From Pseudorhodobacter sp. PARRP1 (GTDB lineage Bacteria; Pseudomonadota; Alphaproteobacteria; Rhodobacterales; Rhodobacteraceae): 64,000 nt of DNA. Location of the stretch: NCBI GenBank assembly GCA_002256245.1, contig NKIU01000006.1:124001-188000 (forward strand), in the 5' to 3' direction. The notes under the pieces were generated by a model, which did no database searches, was not told the DNA's origin, and was given only the letters and a program-made list of their open reading frames with translations. Both the position numbers and the translations under genes were made by a program. Of this stretch, positions 30,895-64,000 are shown piece after piece; the first letter of the stretch is position 1, and the number at the start of each line of letters is the position of its first letter.

Positions 30895-30926
30895 TGTGGC
30901 TCGCCACCATTGTGGCTCGCCACCAT
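30895..30926 (+). repeat. Two adjacent 16-bp direct repeats near prophage end
   Basis: TGTGGCTCGCCACCAT occurs twice head to tail (30895-30910, 30911-30926). Each unit is itself a small hairpin, GTGG-CTCG-CCAC. It lies between the candidate phage terminus and the last phage gene. Confidence 0.8.
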
Positions 30927-31010
30927 AGTTGGCAGAGTTTGACACCATAACCTGCAGCAACGCGATTTTCAGAATTTAGCGGCGGGGTCAACTGGATACC
31001 CGCTCGCACG

Positions 31011-31052
31011 GTTTCCGATTTCGCGCCGCCAAGTAGGTTACAAATCGGAAAC
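31011..31052. repeat. 11-bp inverted repeat near prophage end
   Basis: GTTTCCGATTT (31011-31021) and AAATCGGAAAC (31042-31052) are perfect complements 20 bases apart, 46 bases from the stop of the last phage gene. It may be a terminator of the late transcript or paired transposase sites; there is no T run. Confidence 0.6.
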
Positions 31053-31097
31053 GCGAGGCAAAACTGGTCGTGCAGGCGATCCGGTTAAACGGGGTAT

Positions 31098-31670
31098 TTA
31101 AACCCCGCTTAAAGGGTCAATGAAAGCCCCGGCCGCAGCGCTGATCAGGTCCACGCCGAGCGGTGCCAGCGCGCGCCGCCACAACTCCCCGGCCGTCTCA
31201 TTTGGCAACACCTGCACCCGCTCTTGGAGACGCCGTCCATCGGCCACCACCACAGGCCCGCCATCGACGCACTCGGTCAGCCAATACATCGTTCCGCCGG
31301 TGAAGCGCTGGCCCGCATCCAGTGCGGCTTGGATCGCGCCTTTGCCCTTGAACGCTGGCAGCAGCGACGGGTGATACCCAATGGCCCCGAGGCGGCTCCA
31401 GTCGATCACCCAAGGCGGGATCATCCGATAGGAATGCGCGGACACACAGAGCGTCGGCCGCCATGGAAAATCCGCCCCGCAGAGCGGCACATGATCCGGC
31501 TTTGCCGCCCACGGCAGACCCAGATCGCGGGCCATCTGCGCCGCACGATCCGCCGAATCCGGGCAGATCAAGGCCACGTCATGCCCATGCTGCGCGAGCC
31601 GCTTGCAGACCTCGGCCCCGAACCACTTCGACCCGAACACCATGACCCGGCCGCGTTCACTCTTCGACAT
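31098..31670 (-). CDS. Formyltransferase-fold protein, Mom-module cargo
   Basis: A 190-residue protein of the PurN/Fmt formyltransferase fold: N-terminal Rossmann strand RVMVFGSKWFGAEVC, then IGYHPSLLPAFKGKGAIQAAL (97-117), TGGTMYWLTECVDGGPVV with D136, and a C-terminal tail. True formyltransferases use an Asn-His-Asp triad in NxHPS...D. Here His100 and Asp136 are present but the Asn position is Gly98, so the chemistry may differ. The ATG at 31670 has AGGGG upstream and lies 14 bases inside the end of the ABC-GNAT gene. As last gene of the com operon it probably acts on, or makes a precursor for, a DNA base modification; that is inference. Confidence 0.8.
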   Translation of the reverse strand: MSKSERGRVMVFGSKWFGAEVCKRLAQHGHDVALICPDSADRAAQMARDLGLPWAAKPDHVPLCGADFPWRPTLCVSAHSYRMIPPWVIDWSRLGAIGYHPSLLPAFKGKGAIQAALDAGQRFTGGTMYWLTECVDGGPVVVADGRRLQERVQVLPNETAGELWRRALAPLGVDLISAAAGAFIDPLSGV

Positions 31671-32775
31671 ATCGAAACCCCTGCACTGCTCTGAAATGCC
31701 CCCCGAAGCCGCCCGTCGAGAGGTTCTCTGTCTCACCCTTGCGGATCGCTGCCGCGCGCAATGATTGGGCGCTACGCAGCTTGGACGCACCGCAAAGCTC
31801 GGCCGAGATTTGCGCCCATTTCGGATCGCGGCGCAGAGCCTCCGCCAGCCCCGGATGCGACGTGTGAAACAGCGTCGGCATCGGCTTTGCGTATCGGTTG
31901 ATGCCACGCCGCCACAGCGCGCAGACCTCGTTCAGAAACCGCAGACCCAGCCCCGCGCCCTGCCACTCCGGCATGATCACAAGTCTGCACGCGCGGGCCT
32001 CTTTCATGCCCGGTCGGGTGGAAAAGCAGACATGCGCCACAGGCTCGCCGTCGACGCATCCAACGTAGTAATTCGCCGCCACCATGCGCGGCAGCTTCAG
32101 GTAGTGATGCGGCTCAAAGGCGGACCAGAAGGAGCCGTCTGTTTGGTGAATATCCATCGCAATGACCGGTGCACGTCGAAGACGCCTCCAGCGGAATGCG
32201 CCGGTTTGCGTGTCGATCACCCAATCGGGTTGCAGCCAGTCGGTCACGTCCTCGTGGCAGGTGACGGCCACGAATTGCCCCGGCCCGCGCCTCCAGCTTT
32301 TGGCGAAGGCCGCAGCACCGATCCGGGCCACACGCCGGTCAATGGTCGAGGTAAACTCGTCCATGACAGCCAGCGCGGGGCGCTCGCAGAGAAGCCGCGC
32401 CATCGATGCGCGGAACTGCTCGCCGTTCGACAAATGCTTGAACGGCCGCAGCCAGGACGGCACCGACCCAAGGCCGACTGAGGCCAGCGCCGTGGTGATG
32501 GCGTTGAACTCGCCCTCGGGCGCGATGGCTTCAATCAGCGGCGAATCCGGCCAAGTTTGCACGGCATCGACGCCACCAAATGCTGCCCGCGCGATAGAGG
32601 TTTTGCCGGTGCCGGAGGGGCCTTTGATCAAGCCGATCTGCCACGGCCGCGCGTCAAATGGCGCATCGATGGACAGGCGGAAATCGGCATCATCGACGAT
32701 GTTGAACAGGCTCGCGACACGGGCCGCGCGGTAGCTGTTCGGGATCGGCGCGGGGTGGTGAATGTCGAGTTTCAT
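31657..32775 (-). CDS. ABC-ATPase fused to GNAT domain (COG2401-like), Mom-like
   Basis: A 372-residue fusion. Residues 45-195 are an ABC-type ATPase: Walker A GPSGTGKTS (52-60), signature LSNGEQ (115-120), Walker B ALAVMDEFTS with Asp139-Glu140 and an H-loop His174 (VTCHED). There is no membrane segment and no permease nearby, so it is not a transporter subunit. Residues 220-330 are a GNAT-like domain with RLVIMPEWQGAGLGLRFL (264-281), the acetyl-CoA-type loop. Mu Mom is also a GNAT-fold protein and is likewise encoded at the right end behind com. I infer a Mom-type DNA modification enzyme with an added ATPase. Four-base overlap (ATGA) with the gene upstream. Confidence 0.85.
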   Translation of the reverse strand: MKLDIHHPAPIPNSYRAARVASLFNIVDDADFRLSIDAPFDARPWQIGLIKGPSGTGKTSIARAAFGGVDAVQTWPDSPLIEAIAPEGEFNAITTALASVGLGSVPSWLRPFKHLSNGEQFRASMARLLCERPALAVMDEFTSTIDRRVARIGAAAFAKSWRRGPGQFVAVTCHEDVTDWLQPDWVIDTQTGAFRWRRLRRAPVIAMDIHQTDGSFWSAFEPHHYLKLPRMVAANYYVGCVDGEPVAHVCFSTRPGMKEARACRLVIMPEWQGAGLGLRFLNEVCALWRRGINRYAKPMPTLFHTSHPGLAEALRRDPKWAQISAELCGASKLRSAQSLRAAAIRKGETENLSTGGFGGHFRAVQGFRYVEE

Positions 32776-32969
32776 GTGACCACCACGCGGGGTTTAAAGC
32801 CCTGTTTAACGAGGCTGTTAAACACCCGTTCCTGCTCGGCCGGGCCATCGACTTTCAGGATCAGGCCATACTGTTCGCGGTAGCGCAGATTGGAGGGCCG
32901 CCCCGGCGCGTCGTCTGGCAGGGGCGGCAGGGGAATGGTGTCGCTTGTGGCAACAGGGGAAGGTTTCAC
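32772..32969 (-). CDS. Small protein between com and ABC-GNAT gene
   Basis: A 65-residue ORF (GTG start at 32969, overlapping the com stop as GTGA, with GGAG eight bases upstream). A Pro-rich N terminus is followed by LRYREQYGLILKVDGPAEQERVFNSLVKQGFKPRVVVT, which looks like a small alpha/beta domain. Its stop overlaps the ABC-GNAT start (ATGA). An ATG in the same frame at 33059 would lie inside com without a ribosome binding site. Unknown function; tight coupling on both sides says it belongs to the modification module, perhaps as specificity or accessory subunit. Confidence 0.7.
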   Translation of the reverse strand: MKPSPVATSDTIPLPPLPDDAPGRPSNLRYREQYGLILKVDGPAEQERVFNSLVKQGFKPRVVVT

Positions 32970-33148
32970 GTTTTGGCTCCGAGCGGGTCTGGCGCGGGGT
33001 CGCGCTCTGGGTTCGGGCTCGGGGGCCTCAAGTGATTGAACGCCCGGCAGCGCGGGCATTTCACGGAAAGGGCACCAACCAGCGCCCCTGCCTGCATTTT
33101 AAATAGCAACCGCGCACAGGCGCAGCAACGAATCTCTTGATCCGGCAT
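32966..33148 (-). CDS. com: Com-like zinc-finger translational regulator
   Basis: A 60-residue protein matching Mu Com. Cys8, Cys11, Cys31 and Cys34 are in EIRCCACARLLFK and VKCPRCRAFNHLRPP, the same spacing class as Com's Cys6/Cys9/Cys26/Cys29 zinc knuckle. In Mu, Com binds mom mRNA and opens its start region for translation. Here the first gene downstream is a 65-residue ORF and then the ABC-GNAT gene, so Com would control that group. The C-terminal tail is Pro-rich. I start at 33148 (MPDQEIRC); longer frames to 33358 have no support. GANTC sites occur at 33130-33134 and 33152-33156. Confidence 0.88.
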   Translation of the reverse strand: MPDQEIRCCACARLLFKMQAGALVGALSVKCPRCRAFNHLRPPSPNPERDPAPDPLGAKT

Positions 33149-57462: not shown

Positions 57463-57849
57463 TCAGAGCAGTGGCAACTGATCGGGATGCGGCCCCTCAC
57501 GTTTGGGCGCATTATCGTCAAGCCAACGGGCGACCGTTGGCATTGTGGCATGCAGCTTGCGGCAAATATCCGTCCTGGACAAGCCGTCAACCGTCAGCAG
57601 GTATTTTGCGATCCACGGCTTGGCCGTGGGCACCCGCGCGGGCAATTTGTCAGCAACCGCCGCCAGCGCGCGCAGCCCGTCGAGCCCAATTACTTCAACC
57701 GCCAGCGCCTTTCCCTTGGGGTCTTTGGCGACGTAAAACTCCGCACCGCCAAAAGCCAAAAGGAACCGAACGGCAAGTTCGGCTCCGAGGGCAGTGACAT
57801 AGGGGTCGATGTGCGCGGGCGGGCGCGGGATGTTGGGGATGCTAGACAT
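57463..57849 (-). CDS. Mor/C family late transcription activator
   Basis: A 128-residue protein of the Mor/C family. LGAELAVRFLLAFGGAEFYVAKDP is the family's dimer and beta-strand DNA-intercalation region (AFGG..xYV). The C-terminal LSRTDICRKLHATMPTVARWL is the helix-turn-helix. I prefer the ATG at 57849 (GGGAGGT close upstream) over 57861. Only one such gene is visible. Its position just before the lysis genes equals that of Mu C, so it should activate the late promoters, probably through the repeat that starts one base after its stop codon. Confidence 0.85.
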   Translation of the reverse strand: MSSIPNIPRPPAHIDPYVTALGAELAVRFLLAFGGAEFYVAKDPKGKALAVEVIGLDGLRALAAVADKLPARVPTAKPWIAKYLLTVDGLSRTDICRKLHATMPTVARWLDDNAPKREGPHPDQLPLL

Positions 57850-58483
57850 CTGACCTCCCATCGAACTTATCGATCTCGTTGCCCCATACCGTCCAACCCT
57901 TGCGGGGCTGTCGGCTGAACAACTCGCACCGCTGTGCGTTGGGCATCAGCTTCTCAGCCTCGCGGAAGCACTCATCCGGCTTGCGGCTATGTTGGCGGGC
58001 AAGGCCGAAGATCGTGTTGCGGACCGAGCGTGTCGTCTTAGGCGCGCCCCGCGTGGCGATCAGGAAAGGTTCACCTGCGTTGCGCAAGATGTATCCGGTC
58101 CCGAAGCTCTGCTTGCCGTTTTTCGTCTGTTTGACCCACTGACCTTGGGTTTTGTAGGTGAAGCCCCATGCCGCAATCAGATCCAGCGCCTCGGGCAACA
58201 TCGGCCCAACCGCCCAGAACCACATCAGACAATCGCGCGCGGCAAGTAGCTCGACGGGCATAGCTTTGCCTTCCTCGATCGACATCGTCTTGTATTGCGC
58301 TTGCGGGGACTTCTCGTATCCGCGTTCGGAGCGCATTTCATACTGCCACGGGAAATCGACCATGATCAGATCGAAGCCTCCCACGGGCCGCAGCGTACGA
58401 AACTGGCTGATCAGTCCAGGCCCGACAACGCAAGGCTTGGAAGCCTGCGCGGTTTGCCCAAACAGATCTGGCGCGAGGTTCAT
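57842..58483 (-). CDS. MT-A70 family DNA N6-adenine methyltransferase
   Basis: A 213-residue adenine methyltransferase. The catalytic motif reads DFPW (43-46) instead of DPPW, inside FDLIMVDFPWQYEM. SAM-binding parts are CLMWFWAVGPMLPEALDLIAAWGF (in part) and GEPFLIATRGAP. Phage members methylate their own DNA to escape restriction or alter regulation. It overlaps the Mor/C-like gene by eight bases, so it is read with the middle genes. Together with the Mom-like module the phage seems to carry two unrelated DNA-modification strategies. Confidence 0.87.
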   Translation of the reverse strand: MNLAPDLFGQTAQASKPCVVGPGLISQFRTLRPVGGFDLIMVDFPWQYEMRSERGYEKSPQAQYKTMSIEEGKAMPVELLAARDCLMWFWAVGPMLPEALDLIAAWGFTYKTQGQWVKQTKNGKQSFGTGYILRNAGEPFLIATRGAPKTTRSVRNTIFGLARQHSRKPDECFREAEKLMPNAQRCELFSRQPRKGWTVWGNEIDKFDGRSDV

Positions 58484-60888: not shown

Positions 60889-61436
60889 GCCCGCACCTCA
60901 TTGATCGGGGCCGAGGTGCCGATGTTCGGATCAACGATGCACACGAGGCGGCGCGCGCGCGGTGCCCGCACGCCGGTGATGTTGATCAAGCGATAGATCG
61001 CCGCCTTGTGCGGCGGGATCGCCTTCTGCACCACCTTGAGATAGCGCCCGGTCAGCAACAGGCGGCAGTAGGAAGCCGCCTCTTCAATCGTCAGCGGCAG
61101 CGAACAGGTGGCCACCAGATCAGCTGGCGAAAACCCGGTCATCTTGCGCATGGAGGTCCACATCTGCTCGTAAATGTCGCCCACCACAGGCGCGATGCGG
61201 ATCTCGCCCTCGGGGATCACTTCAAAGTGCAGCTTGTTCTTGCGGCCCTTTTCGGTGGCAATACGGCGCACCTTGCCTGCAGCCTCCCATTCTTCGATCA
61301 GATGCGCAGCGTGCCGAACATTGATGGTCACCTCGTAGCTGATGTTGGCGTAGCAGAACTGCTGCAGACGCAACGCCGCCCGCCATGCCGCATCCGCCTT
61401 GGCCTGATGATCCGGGCTGGAATAGGGCTTTGTCAT
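60885..61436 (-). CDS. Early phage protein with probable HTH, unknown
   Basis: A 183-residue protein directly behind gene B. The N-terminal part (WRAALRLQQFCYANISYEVTINVRHAAHLIEEWEAAGKVRRI, in part) looks like a winged helix, and the rest includes a helical segment (LPLTIEEAASYCRLLLTGRYLKV). Possible roles are replication or control of transposition. ATGA overlaps with B and with the following gene. No specific family recognised. Confidence 0.68.
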   Translation of the reverse strand: MTKPYSSPDHQAKADAAWRAALRLQQFCYANISYEVTINVRHAAHLIEEWEAAGKVRRIATEKGRKNKLHFEVIPEGEIRIAPVVGDIYEQMWTSMRKMTGFSPADLVATCSLPLTIEEAASYCRLLLTGRYLKVVQKAIPPHKAAIYRLINITGVRAPRARRLVCIVDPNIGTSAPINEVRA

Positions 61437-62221
61437 GCGGTCCTCCGGCGCGGGGCCACGACACTCAGCTGCGCCCGTGCAATCGGCGCATCACCTGTGT
61501 GCAGCGCTTTGCCGCCCCAATCGCCCAGAGCCATCTTCTTCAGCCCTTTCGACGCGGCGAACTCAAAGATGCCCGCAAGATTGGTCGAGACGTTCCGCAG
61601 CGATCCGCCCGACGCGCTCAACACAGCGGCGCGCAGATCGGCCTCGATGACCACGCCCGGCGCGTAGATCGCGGCAAGGTGCTTTACATCGTCCAGCGTT
61701 GCAGCCTCGGCAGCTTCCCAACTCAGGATACGGCTATGCACGCGCTCCCATGCCTTCAGCTTTTGCGGCAGCAGTTCTTCGCCCATCAGGATCAACGGCA
61801 CCTCCGTGGTGTCGTGGAGGTGGCGCAGCATGTCGATGACCCTGCCCTGCGGGTCTTTCGAGCCTTTGGGGATCAGCTGGTCGGCCTCATCGATGATCAG
61901 GGGACGGTCACTCTGCCGTTGCAGATCGACGGCTTGCAAAAACAGGTCGGCGATGCCGCCGCGTGGCCTGCCGCCGAGTTCGGTGACAATCATGCCAAAC
62001 AGCGTCTTGTTGCCTCCAACTGGCAGTGCGGTGACGTGCACCGCGCGCAAGGCGTTGGTGGCGAAGATGCCCGCATTGGTTTTGCCGAAGCCTGCCGGGC
62101 CATAAAAGCACCCTATCCCCGGCAAGCCAAAGGCGCGGTTCTGCAGGCGCGTGGCCAGCGTCATCAGCCGCGCCACATTGGCCAGCGGGGCGATGTTGTT
62201 AATGGGTGGAGCCTGTGTCAT
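61433..62221 (-). CDS. MuB-like AAA+ ATPase, transposition target activator
   Basis: A 262-residue AAA+ ATPase with Walker A GPAGFGKT (41-48) and Walker B PLIIDEAD with D111-E112, sensor region PLILMGEELLPQ and an Arg-finger-like segment (RVHSRIL). MuB/TnsC-type ATPases form filaments on target DNA and activate the transposase. It lacks the long N-terminal HTH part of Mu B (312 residues) and is more like the shorter B proteins of D3112/B3 and TniB. I start at 62221 (MTQAPPINNI); the in-frame ATG at 62497 lies inside the transposase gene. Confidence 0.9.
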   Translation of the reverse strand: MTQAPPINNIAPLANVARLMTLATRLQNRAFGLPGIGCFYGPAGFGKTNAGIFATNALRAVHVTALPVGGNKTLFGMIVTELGGRPRGGIADLFLQAVDLQRQSDRPLIIDEADQLIPKGSKDPQGRVIDMLRHLHDTTEVPLILMGEELLPQKLKAWERVHSRILSWEAAEAATLDDVKHLAAIYAPGVVIEADLRAAVLSASGGSLRNVSTNLAGIFEFAASKGLKKMALGDWGGKALHTGDAPIARAQLSVVAPRRRTA

Positions 62222-62279
62222 TCTGTCGTCTCTCCTCGTTACCGCCGCCGTAGGGCCTGCCCGCCCTCGGCGGCTTTCC

Positions 62280-64000
62280 TCATCCGAAATATTCGGCGCT
62301 GGCGCCGAATTGGCCCCACATGATCCGTTCGGCGATGTATTCGGGGCTTGTCTGATAGGCCGCCAATGCCGCGCGCTGATCTTTGGTGATCGGCTCGCCT
62401 GCCGCGATCTGCTGCTCAAGTTCCAACGCCCTTTTGAAGCGTTCACGGGGCGTGTCAGCGTCATCCGCAGCGATCTGGGCTTGCCGCGCAGCCGCATCGG
62501 ACAACATGACCACCTGCGCCTGCGCTACCTCTGCCTCGGACATTGTGGGGGCGCTGCGCGGGCGTTTGGGGACGCCCTTGTTCTTGCCAAACACGCCTTT
62601 GACGACTTTGCTTTCGACCGGGGACAATGGAACGGGCGCAGTTTCATCCATCATCTGGCCAACTTCGGCGGCGGTCAGGGTGCGATGCGCCGCAAGCGCG
62701 GCTTTCTCCGCCTTCAGCCATGCCTTGCGCAGACGCGTGATCGACCTCTCTTCGTCCGCAGAGAAGAACCCGACCGCTTGCCGACAGGGCGCAAACCCAA
62801 GGTATTCATTGTCGAAGGAGTAAACGTGTATTCCGTCATGGAATGCTGCAAGATCAAACCGGATGATCAGCCTTTTGCCAGCATGTTCATGCAGCCAGTC
62901 AGCGTAAAACTCGTTCTTCTGATACCAGATTGCGCCTGTATTTTTCGCGCGGACACCTTCGGCACCCAACAGCCAAAGGCGGCGCTGTGCTTCGGTGGCT
63001 TTGCGGATCGGCGCACTGGCATAAGCTTCGTCAAACACTTGGGCAAAACTGCGACCCCATGCGACTTCCGATCTGCGCCCGACGCGGGTATTATGTTCTT
63101 CGATGCCCTCAGCAACCACCCGCTGAAACTCTTCCAGCGCGATGGCGCGGCTGCCGTAGTCTTCTGGCTTGGCCAGCGGTGTGTTTCCGGTGTAGGCCCC
63201 GGCAAAACGCGGATCGAGTGCGATGCTTTTGCACATATCGCGGAAGGCCCGTTCGATAGGCTTGGCCTGACCATGATACGGTGTGGCAAAGTGGATTTTT
63301 GTTCCGAGCGCGGTGAAAAGACCCGGAACATCGTCTTCCTTCACCTTGAAGCGATATCGTGTCAGAGCACCGCCCGTTATATCCTTGGCGGCAAACTCCC
63401 GGCCGTTATCGAGCAAGATATGCTCTGGTATTCCCCATGTTTCGATCATGTCGCCTGCACACAACTGCACCGCAACGGAGTTGGGGTTTAAATCAAGCCG
63501 CCAAGACAAAATGCGGCCCGAAAAGATGTCCTGAAAGGCAACCATCTGCGGCCGTGTGATGAGGGGAGCCTCTCCCTTCGGCACCGGCCAACTGACGAAC
63601 ACATCAAATTTGTGGAAGTCGGCGTTCACCGCTTCCATCGGGGCGAGTGCACTCTTATCGCGAACCTGTGGCGGGTAGAGGCGGGTCGCTGCTTCGACAC
63701 CTCGACGCGCGAGGATTTGGCTCAGATTCGAGACGCGACGATCCATGATCCGGCGCATCGTCCGTTCAGGCAGCACATCCCAACCCTTGGCCTTAGCGAT
63801 GCGAACTGCTCGGCGATAGCTGTCCGAAAACGGCGGCTGACCCAACCGCAAGAAATCTGCAGCCAAAACCTCAAAGAATTCCGGGCTATATTCCTTTGAC
63901 CGCACCCAAGCGACTGCCGCCCGATTCCGGGGCGCGAGATAGGGCAAGCGGTCATCGACGCGCACGCCTTCAATCATTGAAAACCACGTCCAGATCGTGC
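62280..64000 (-). CDS. MuA-like DDE transposase (5' end beyond window)
   Basis: The frame is open to the window edge, so the N terminus is missing; 573 residues are visible. Counting from the first visible Met (63977), D120 in VNADFHKFDVF, D190 in HILLDNGREFAAKDITGG and E242 in HGQAKPIERAFRD align with D269, D336 and E392 of MuA, including the shared GQAKPxERAF. A Mu-type beta-barrel and a C-terminal charged helical tail, which in Mu contacts B and ClpX, follow. The missing part should hold the end-binding domains. It integrates and replicates the phage by transposition. Confidence 0.95.
   Translation of the reverse strand, partial: TIWTWFSMIEGVRVDDRLPYLAPRNRAAVAWVRSKEYSPEFFEVLAADFLRLGQPPFSDSYRRAVRIAKAKGWDVLPERTMRRIMDRRVSNLSQILARRGVEAATRLYPPQVRDKSALAPMEAVNADFHKFDVFVSWPVPKGEAPLITRPQMVAFQDIFSGRILSWRLDLNPNSVAVQLCAGDMIETWGIPEHILLDNGREFAAKDITGGALTRYRFKVKEDDVPGLFTALGTKIHFATPYHGQAKPIERAFRDMCKSIALDPRFAGAYTGNTPLAKPEDYGSRAIALEEFQRVVAEGIEEHNTRVGRRSEVAWGRSFAQVFDEAYASAPIRKATEAQRRLWLLGAEGVRAKNTGAIWYQKNEFYADWLHEHAGKRLIIRFDLAAFHDGIHVYSFDNEYLGFAPCRQAVGFFSADEERSITRLRKAWLKAEKAALAAHRTLTAAEVGQMMDETAPVPLSPVESKVVKGVFGKNKGVPKRPRSAPTMSEAEVAQAQVVMLSDAAARQAQIAADDADTPRERFKRALELEQQIAAGEPITKDQRAALAAYQTSPEYIAERIMWGQFGASAEYFG

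Follow-up and report, generated by a model that had tools for sequence, protein, structure and literature searches.

A Com-headed ABC-GNAT cassette at the right end of a Mu-like prophage, with a likely role in the modification of phage DNA

The right end of a Mu-like prophage of Pseudorhodobacter sp. PARRP1 carries a four-gene cassette on the minus strand, at positions 31098-33148 of the window (the whole stretch of DNA that was analysed, 64,000 nucleotides). The Mu-like character of the prophage is seen in its transposase gene (62280 to at least 63977), in the gene of a DNA transposition protein (61433-62497), and in genes for GemA, Gp27, terminase, portal, major head and J-like tail proteins, all of them on the minus strand. 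The features of the cassette and its border are as follows.

32966..33148, minus strand: Com-type zinc-ribbon protein, 60 aa; PF10122 (Zn_ribbon_Com) at E 2.6e-12, over the cut-off; phrog_6417
32772..32969, minus strand: 65-aa protein with a GTG start; its last ~45 aa form a conserved tail module
31657..32775, minus strand: ABC-type ATPase fused to a GNAT acyltransferase (ABC-GNAT), 372 aa; PF00005 and PF00583, both over the cut-off
31098..31670, minus strand: formyltransferase-fold protein (FT), 190 aa; PF00551 at E 1.4e-19
31011..31052, no strand assigned: inverted repeat GTTTCCGATTT...AAATCGGAAAC, just past the cassette; putative end site of the prophage, perhaps bound by the transposase

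All four coupled genes named in the preliminary description were present at the coordinates given there, and they are chained by overlaps. The com stop TGA overlaps the GTG start of the 65-aa protein as GTGA (32966-32969), the stop of the 65-aa protein overlaps the ABC-GNAT start as ATGA (32772-32775), and the FT start overlaps the ABC-GNAT stop by 14 nt (31657-31670). An in-frame ATG at 33059 would lengthen the 65-aa protein to 95 aa. The placement of the cassette where Mu carries com-mom was borne out as well, since it occupies the com slot at the right end of the prophage. The cassette was matched by phrog_11143 with an E value of 3.9e-134, and an identical gene order was found in Pseudomonas phage Komp_PAO1_1.

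The same prophage also encodes an MT-A70/phage DNA methyltransferase (57842-58483, minus strand; PF05063, E 1.2e-27), so that two DNA-modification activities may coexist. Remains of the right end of a second, related prophage were detected just past the presumed left end of the cassette-bearing prophage (G000:C28:193334-193731; 69334-69728 in the extended window numbering). They span 395 bp, 84.6% identical to window positions 30922-31316, and include the end of an FT homologue (about 72 codons, 69-71% identity).

The Com protein (P0001) scored 46.5 bits against PF10122, with a cut-off of 22.9, and matched the translational regulator family phrog_6417 at E 4.3e-13. In the PF10122 searches 4 matches in 289 genomes of the class and 24 in 398 genomes of the phylum were over the cut-off; the source genome was in both samples, which overlap (G000, G063). 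The genes headed by com were surveyed at 34 loci by taking the longest same-strand ORF that starts within 500 bases of com, and 30 ORFs were used. The survey excluded the own window (L132), a locus that was not com by our own profile (L133), one below the cut-off (L134) and one at a contig end (L143). Locus L158, below the Pfam cut-off and found by our own com profile, was kept, and one more match (G578:C24) had no locus. By Pfam, the 30 ORFs comprised 21 D12 N6-adenine methylases, 3 Mom proteins, 1 C5 methylase, 1 N4/N6 methylase, 1 HEAT-repeat protein and 3 proteins without a match. A known DNA-modification gene was thus found downstream of com in 26 of the 30 cases, which is the strongest argument for DNA modification by ABC-GNAT. 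In this sample methylase genes predominate (D12 methylases 21/30, Mom 3/30); this points to a com that is not tied to mom, and Com may control DNA-modification genes in general. At L136 (1109-1603, minus strand) and L138 (1096-1482) com is followed by a protein without an enzyme-family match, one uncharacterised and the other with HEAT repeats; other functions in the com slot are possible there.

The ABC part of ABC-GNAT possesses Walker A, signature, Walker B, D-loop and H-loop motifs, and residues K58, S116, G118, D139, E140, D146 and H174 did not vary among 71 aligned sequences, of which the window's own was one. The CoA loop Q272-G273-x-G275-x-G277 of the GNAT domain (approximately residues 205-372) was invariant in the same alignment. 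The assignment to the GNAT acyltransferases is based on PF00583 over its cut-off, the CoA pyrophosphate loop and viral GNAT models among the fold matches. The earlier statement that an ATPase with all catalytic motifs is fused to a GNAT domain was thereby confirmed. The AlphaFold model of the fusion reached a pLDDT of 88.9 and a pTM of 0.82. In the Foldseek comparison with the PDB the best 50 matches listed were all ABC proteins, with no GNAT among them; in the comparison with viral models the GNAT protein of Leptospira phage LE4 matched over the whole length with a TM of 0.79. According to annotation, no permease stands beside ABC-GNAT in the phage records examined, and some records call the ABC gene a transporter.

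Matches to ABC-GNAT were found in 72 phage records, at 35 viral-contig loci and in 489 genome stretches; in 38 of the phage records the match covers at least 80% of the protein. Among the best 80 of the 489, the record titles name Proteobacteria, Acidobacteria, Verrucomicrobia, Planctomycetota, Bacteroidetes, Chloroflexi and others. The gene is rare in any one group, with 2 carriers among 295 genomes of the source's family. ABC and GNAT are separate adjoining genes in some phages. In others ABC-GNAT adjoins terminase or replication genes, and a late role is therefore not general. Two ABC-GNAT loci were found on each of two viral contigs (L008 and L026; L009 and L024) and partial matches in two Roseovarius genomes (L113, L121), which suggests repeated prophages and decay.

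The neighbourhood counts were based on the genome set because the viral contigs are redundant: from the best 80 of the 489 genome stretches, 77 loci flanked by 700 bases or more on each side were kept. Com was linked to ABC-GNAT at 51 of these 77 loci, and none was detected by our own profile at the remaining 26. The linkage on which the earlier proposal depended was therefore upheld. Our own Mom profile gave no match in 127 ABC-GNAT loci. The tail module lies directly upstream of ABC-GNAT at 73 of the 77, and an FT gene follows ABC-GNAT at 64 and is missing at 13. In a wider tally of 125 loci, from which L001 and L002 were left out, com was counted 82, the tail module 115 and FT 77 times; a separate, stricter tally gave fewer FT because ORF starts were compared.

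No Pfam match at E<=1 was obtained for the 65-aa protein (P0002). Over its last 45 residues it can be aligned with the end of the protein that immediately precedes ABC-GNAT at other loci. In com-bearing loci this module is a short stand-alone protein; elsewhere it is the C-terminus of a ParB-like protein, as in Gordonia, Oenococcus and Streptococcus phages and at other loci. What is added here, from sequence alignment, is that the 65-aa protein carries by itself the C-terminal module of the ParB-like proteins which precede ABC-GNAT elsewhere. The upstream protein of Gordonia is ParB-like by its record and had no Pfam match, and ParB_N was matched (E<=0.01) by 12 of 20 longer upstream proteins picked from com-less loci. 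By Pfam the ParB N-terminal domain was absent from the 65-aa protein, which shares the C-terminal module only. The protein ahead of ABC-GNAT is also ParB-like in Pasteurella and Leptospira phages, where our own tail profile fell short of its end. The module probably docks ABC-GNAT on DNA or on ParB. It was found in 2 of 299 genomes (the source genome included), both with ABC-GNAT adjoining, and with so small a sample a module independent of ABC-GNAT was not adopted. A separate ParB-like gene was observed in the early region of the prophage just outside the window (L163:1449-2348, minus strand; 64448-65347 in extended numbering; phrog_3264, E 2.4e-47), and it is possible that its product is the partner in trans of the stand-alone module.

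The cassette had been described as Mom-like, which stands for position and fold class and does not stand for homology. In comparison with phage Mu com-mom, the right-end position, the true Com and its overlap with the next gene are alike, and Mu Mom has a GNAT fold (PMC7824862, accessible part). The enzyme of the cassette differs: it is an ABC-GNAT, its CoA loop is intact, and no sequence relation to Mom was detectable. The cassette also has additional genes for the tail module and FT. No cassette protein matched PF25680 (Mom) at E<=1. With hhalign, the GNAT domain and Mom were aligned with a probability of 0.1% (4 Mom sequences) or 0.2% (84 Mom hits), in a test limited by low alignment diversity; the control of FT against Mom resulted in about the same value, 0.1%. 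By eye an HHY-type motif and a C-terminal FRY are common to both, and with hhalign probabilities of only 0.04-0.2% the homology of GNAT to Mom is not claimed.

A hairpin over the ABC-GNAT start, as expected from the Mu model, was also considered. At window positions 32745-32825 (minus strand) GTGGTG upstream and CACCAC downstream of the start pair to form a hairpin; the 81-nt piece with the start gave a z of -2.78 and the 80-nt survey piece of the window a z of -0.69. Among 97 surveyed start regions the mean z was -0.61 for com-bearing (n=67) and -0.37 for com-less loci (n=30), with p 0.62, and 160 in-gene control pieces, which enclose as many pairs, had a mean z of +0.15. Folding is slightly stronger in start regions than inside genes, and this is not owing to com. 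As com-bearing and com-less loci are alike, a com-specific hairpin was rejected as evidence.

FT was nearest by sequence to the hydrolase domain of 10-formyl-THF dehydrogenase (FDH; PDB 1s3i, E 1.3e-13). Its model (pLDDT 94.8) had as the best Foldseek match another FDH hydrolase domain (2cfi, TMq 0.82). With the best sequence and fold matches of this kind, and with the His and Asp kept, FT is best classed with the FDH-type formyl-THF domains; it differs from the N-terminal hydrolase domain of FDH in being stand-alone and phage-encoded. Asn, His and Asp form the catalytic triad of PurN-type amine formyltransferases. In 65 of 70 FT sequences Gly occupies the alignment position which we take to be that of the catalytic Asn of PurN and Fmt, while His and Asp were each kept in 70 of 70; the count covers the 70 longer of 80 sequences, the 10 shorter ones being left out. 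With this replacement FT does not qualify as a PurN-type amine formyltransferase, and the FDH alignments also are without Asn at the N-x-H position.

FT follows ABC-GNAT in the same order in actinobacterial, pseudomonad and Bacteroidetes phages, the pairs being found in Gordonia siphophages, Pseudomonas Komp_PAO1_1 and Porphyromonas Mu-like phages. In a quick tree of 100 ABC-GNATs (74 with FT, 14 without, 12 undecided; 22 of 97 inner branches starred), at least 9 changes are required to account for the distribution of FT. GNAT is therefore probably functional in the absence of FT, in which case the acyl group has to come from another donor. No consistent replacement of FT was seen by eye among the three longest downstream ORFs in 16 FT-less loci. 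FT as an obligate part was ruled out by its absence from 13 of the 77 flanked loci (from the best 80 of 489). Of the potential formyl enzyme that had been noted beside ABC-GNAT, the frequent association held, whereas the enzyme itself proved dispensable.

The FDH relationship leads to a candidate role of FT. In 10-formyl-THF dehydrogenase the formyl group is handed over to a phosphopantetheine thiol. The need of this enzyme for a phosphopantetheine arm is the subject of a reference title in PMC6802093, and in the accessible part of the same paper an FDH-related domain of HypX was proposed to make formyl-CoA; HypX was absent from the PDB sequence matches listed for FT. Since CoA has the same thiol arm and the neighbouring GNAT has a CoA-binding motif, we propose that FT may supply formyl-CoA to GNAT.

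Two other roles of FT were weighed against this proposal. FT could directly formylate an amino group already placed on the base by GNAT, in a two-step hypermodification without a CoA thioester. The amine formyltransferases PurN, Fmt, ArnA and WbkC are found by sequence or fold matches in the fold family of FT, and an optional FT is what a tailoring step would look like; however, the Gly at the presumed catalytic Asn position and the FDH hydrolase domains as the best matches argue against direct formylation, which we regard as possible and rather doubtful. FT could also be a 10-formyl-THF hydrolase or a folate-pool enzyme for phage nucleotide synthesis, linked to the cassette only physically. 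The FDH matches would suit such an enzyme, and FT shares phrog_9240 with cyanophage PurN-like proteins. The overlap of FT with the ABC-GNAT stop and its adjoining position at 64 of the 77 flanked loci (from the best 80 of 489) speak against a merely physical linkage, and a folate role is considered somewhat unlikely.

For the cassette as a whole, a protein of the host or of the phage might be the target instead of DNA. ABC-GNAT would then acetylate proteins under the control of ATP, in the service of host takeover or anti-defence. GNATs of phages with RNA polymerase as their target were described (PMC7824862, accessible part), and the corresponding small ORF of a Porphyromonas phage is annotated as an 'acr candidate'. 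A com slot that otherwise has DNA-modification genes (26/30) and the ParB-like partner in many com-less loci speak against such a target, and we hold it to be improbable.

Gene order, overlaps, motifs, predicted folds and neighbourhood counts taken together are best explained by a cassette that chemically modifies the phage's own DNA, and this reading is considered likely. The modified base suggested in the preliminary description is likewise probable, being supported by the context, namely the com-slot neighbours and the com linkage (51 of 77 flanked loci from the best 80 of 489). ATPases joined to GNAT domains that act on a nucleic-acid base amine are present in the TmcA-type tRNA cytidine acetyltransferases; the ATPase of TmcA is helicase-like, not ABC, and its substrate is RNA. 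The idea of base acylation by an ABC-coupled GNAT is itself not new: a 2021 paper on jumbo phages (PMC7824862, accessible part) cites an earlier prediction that such a system attaches an acyl group to a DNA base in an uncharacterised modification; Tenacibaculum phage pT24 is the exemplar. The pT24 protein is homologous to ABC-GNAT (P0003), with 32.7% identity over 85% and an E value of 2e-41. The system predicted by the Aravind group is like ours in the homologous ABC and GNAT parts and in the predicted base acylation, and differs in that here one fused protein stands beside Com, a stand-alone tail module and an FT partner; Com and a formyltransferase partner are not mentioned in the accessible part of that paper. 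No literature linking ABC-GNAT to com, the ParB tail module or a formyltransferase was found in a search from which subscription papers were mostly out of reach, and which leaves the absence unproven. The literature search also gave no published modified base from a carrier of the system. In the accessible part of the Leptospira LE3/LE4 paper (PMC6078989) no restriction data were found, and the acetyltransferase discussed there is a host gene.

In the mechanism that we propose, Com would probably control the translation of the cassette, as for mom in Mu, presumably late. The tail module, as a stand-alone piece of a ParB-like protein, would probably anchor the enzyme to DNA or to a ParB partner, and ATP-driven dimerisation of the ABC domains would clamp or remodel the DNA. 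The paired GNAT domains could then acylate an exocyclic amino group of a base, with acyl-CoA held in the intact CoA loop. FT, an optional partner, would most likely take formyl from 10-formyl-THF and either alter the donor, giving formyl-CoA, or decorate the product. A more specific version, in which FT makes formyl-CoA, ABC-GNAT puts the formyl on a base amine to give N-formylated phage DNA, FT-less relatives install another acyl group, and Com is a general switch for interchangeable DNA-modification cassettes, is speculative and as a whole unlikely.

With this cassette the published prediction that an ABC-coupled GNAT acylates DNA can be tied to a defined operon, in which a regulator, a module that probably serves for docking and a candidate enzyme for making the donor accompany ABC-GNAT. 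If N-formylated bases are indeed produced, one-carbon metabolism would be the source of this DNA modification, and an acylated or formylated base, if true, would represent a further class of phage DNA camouflage.
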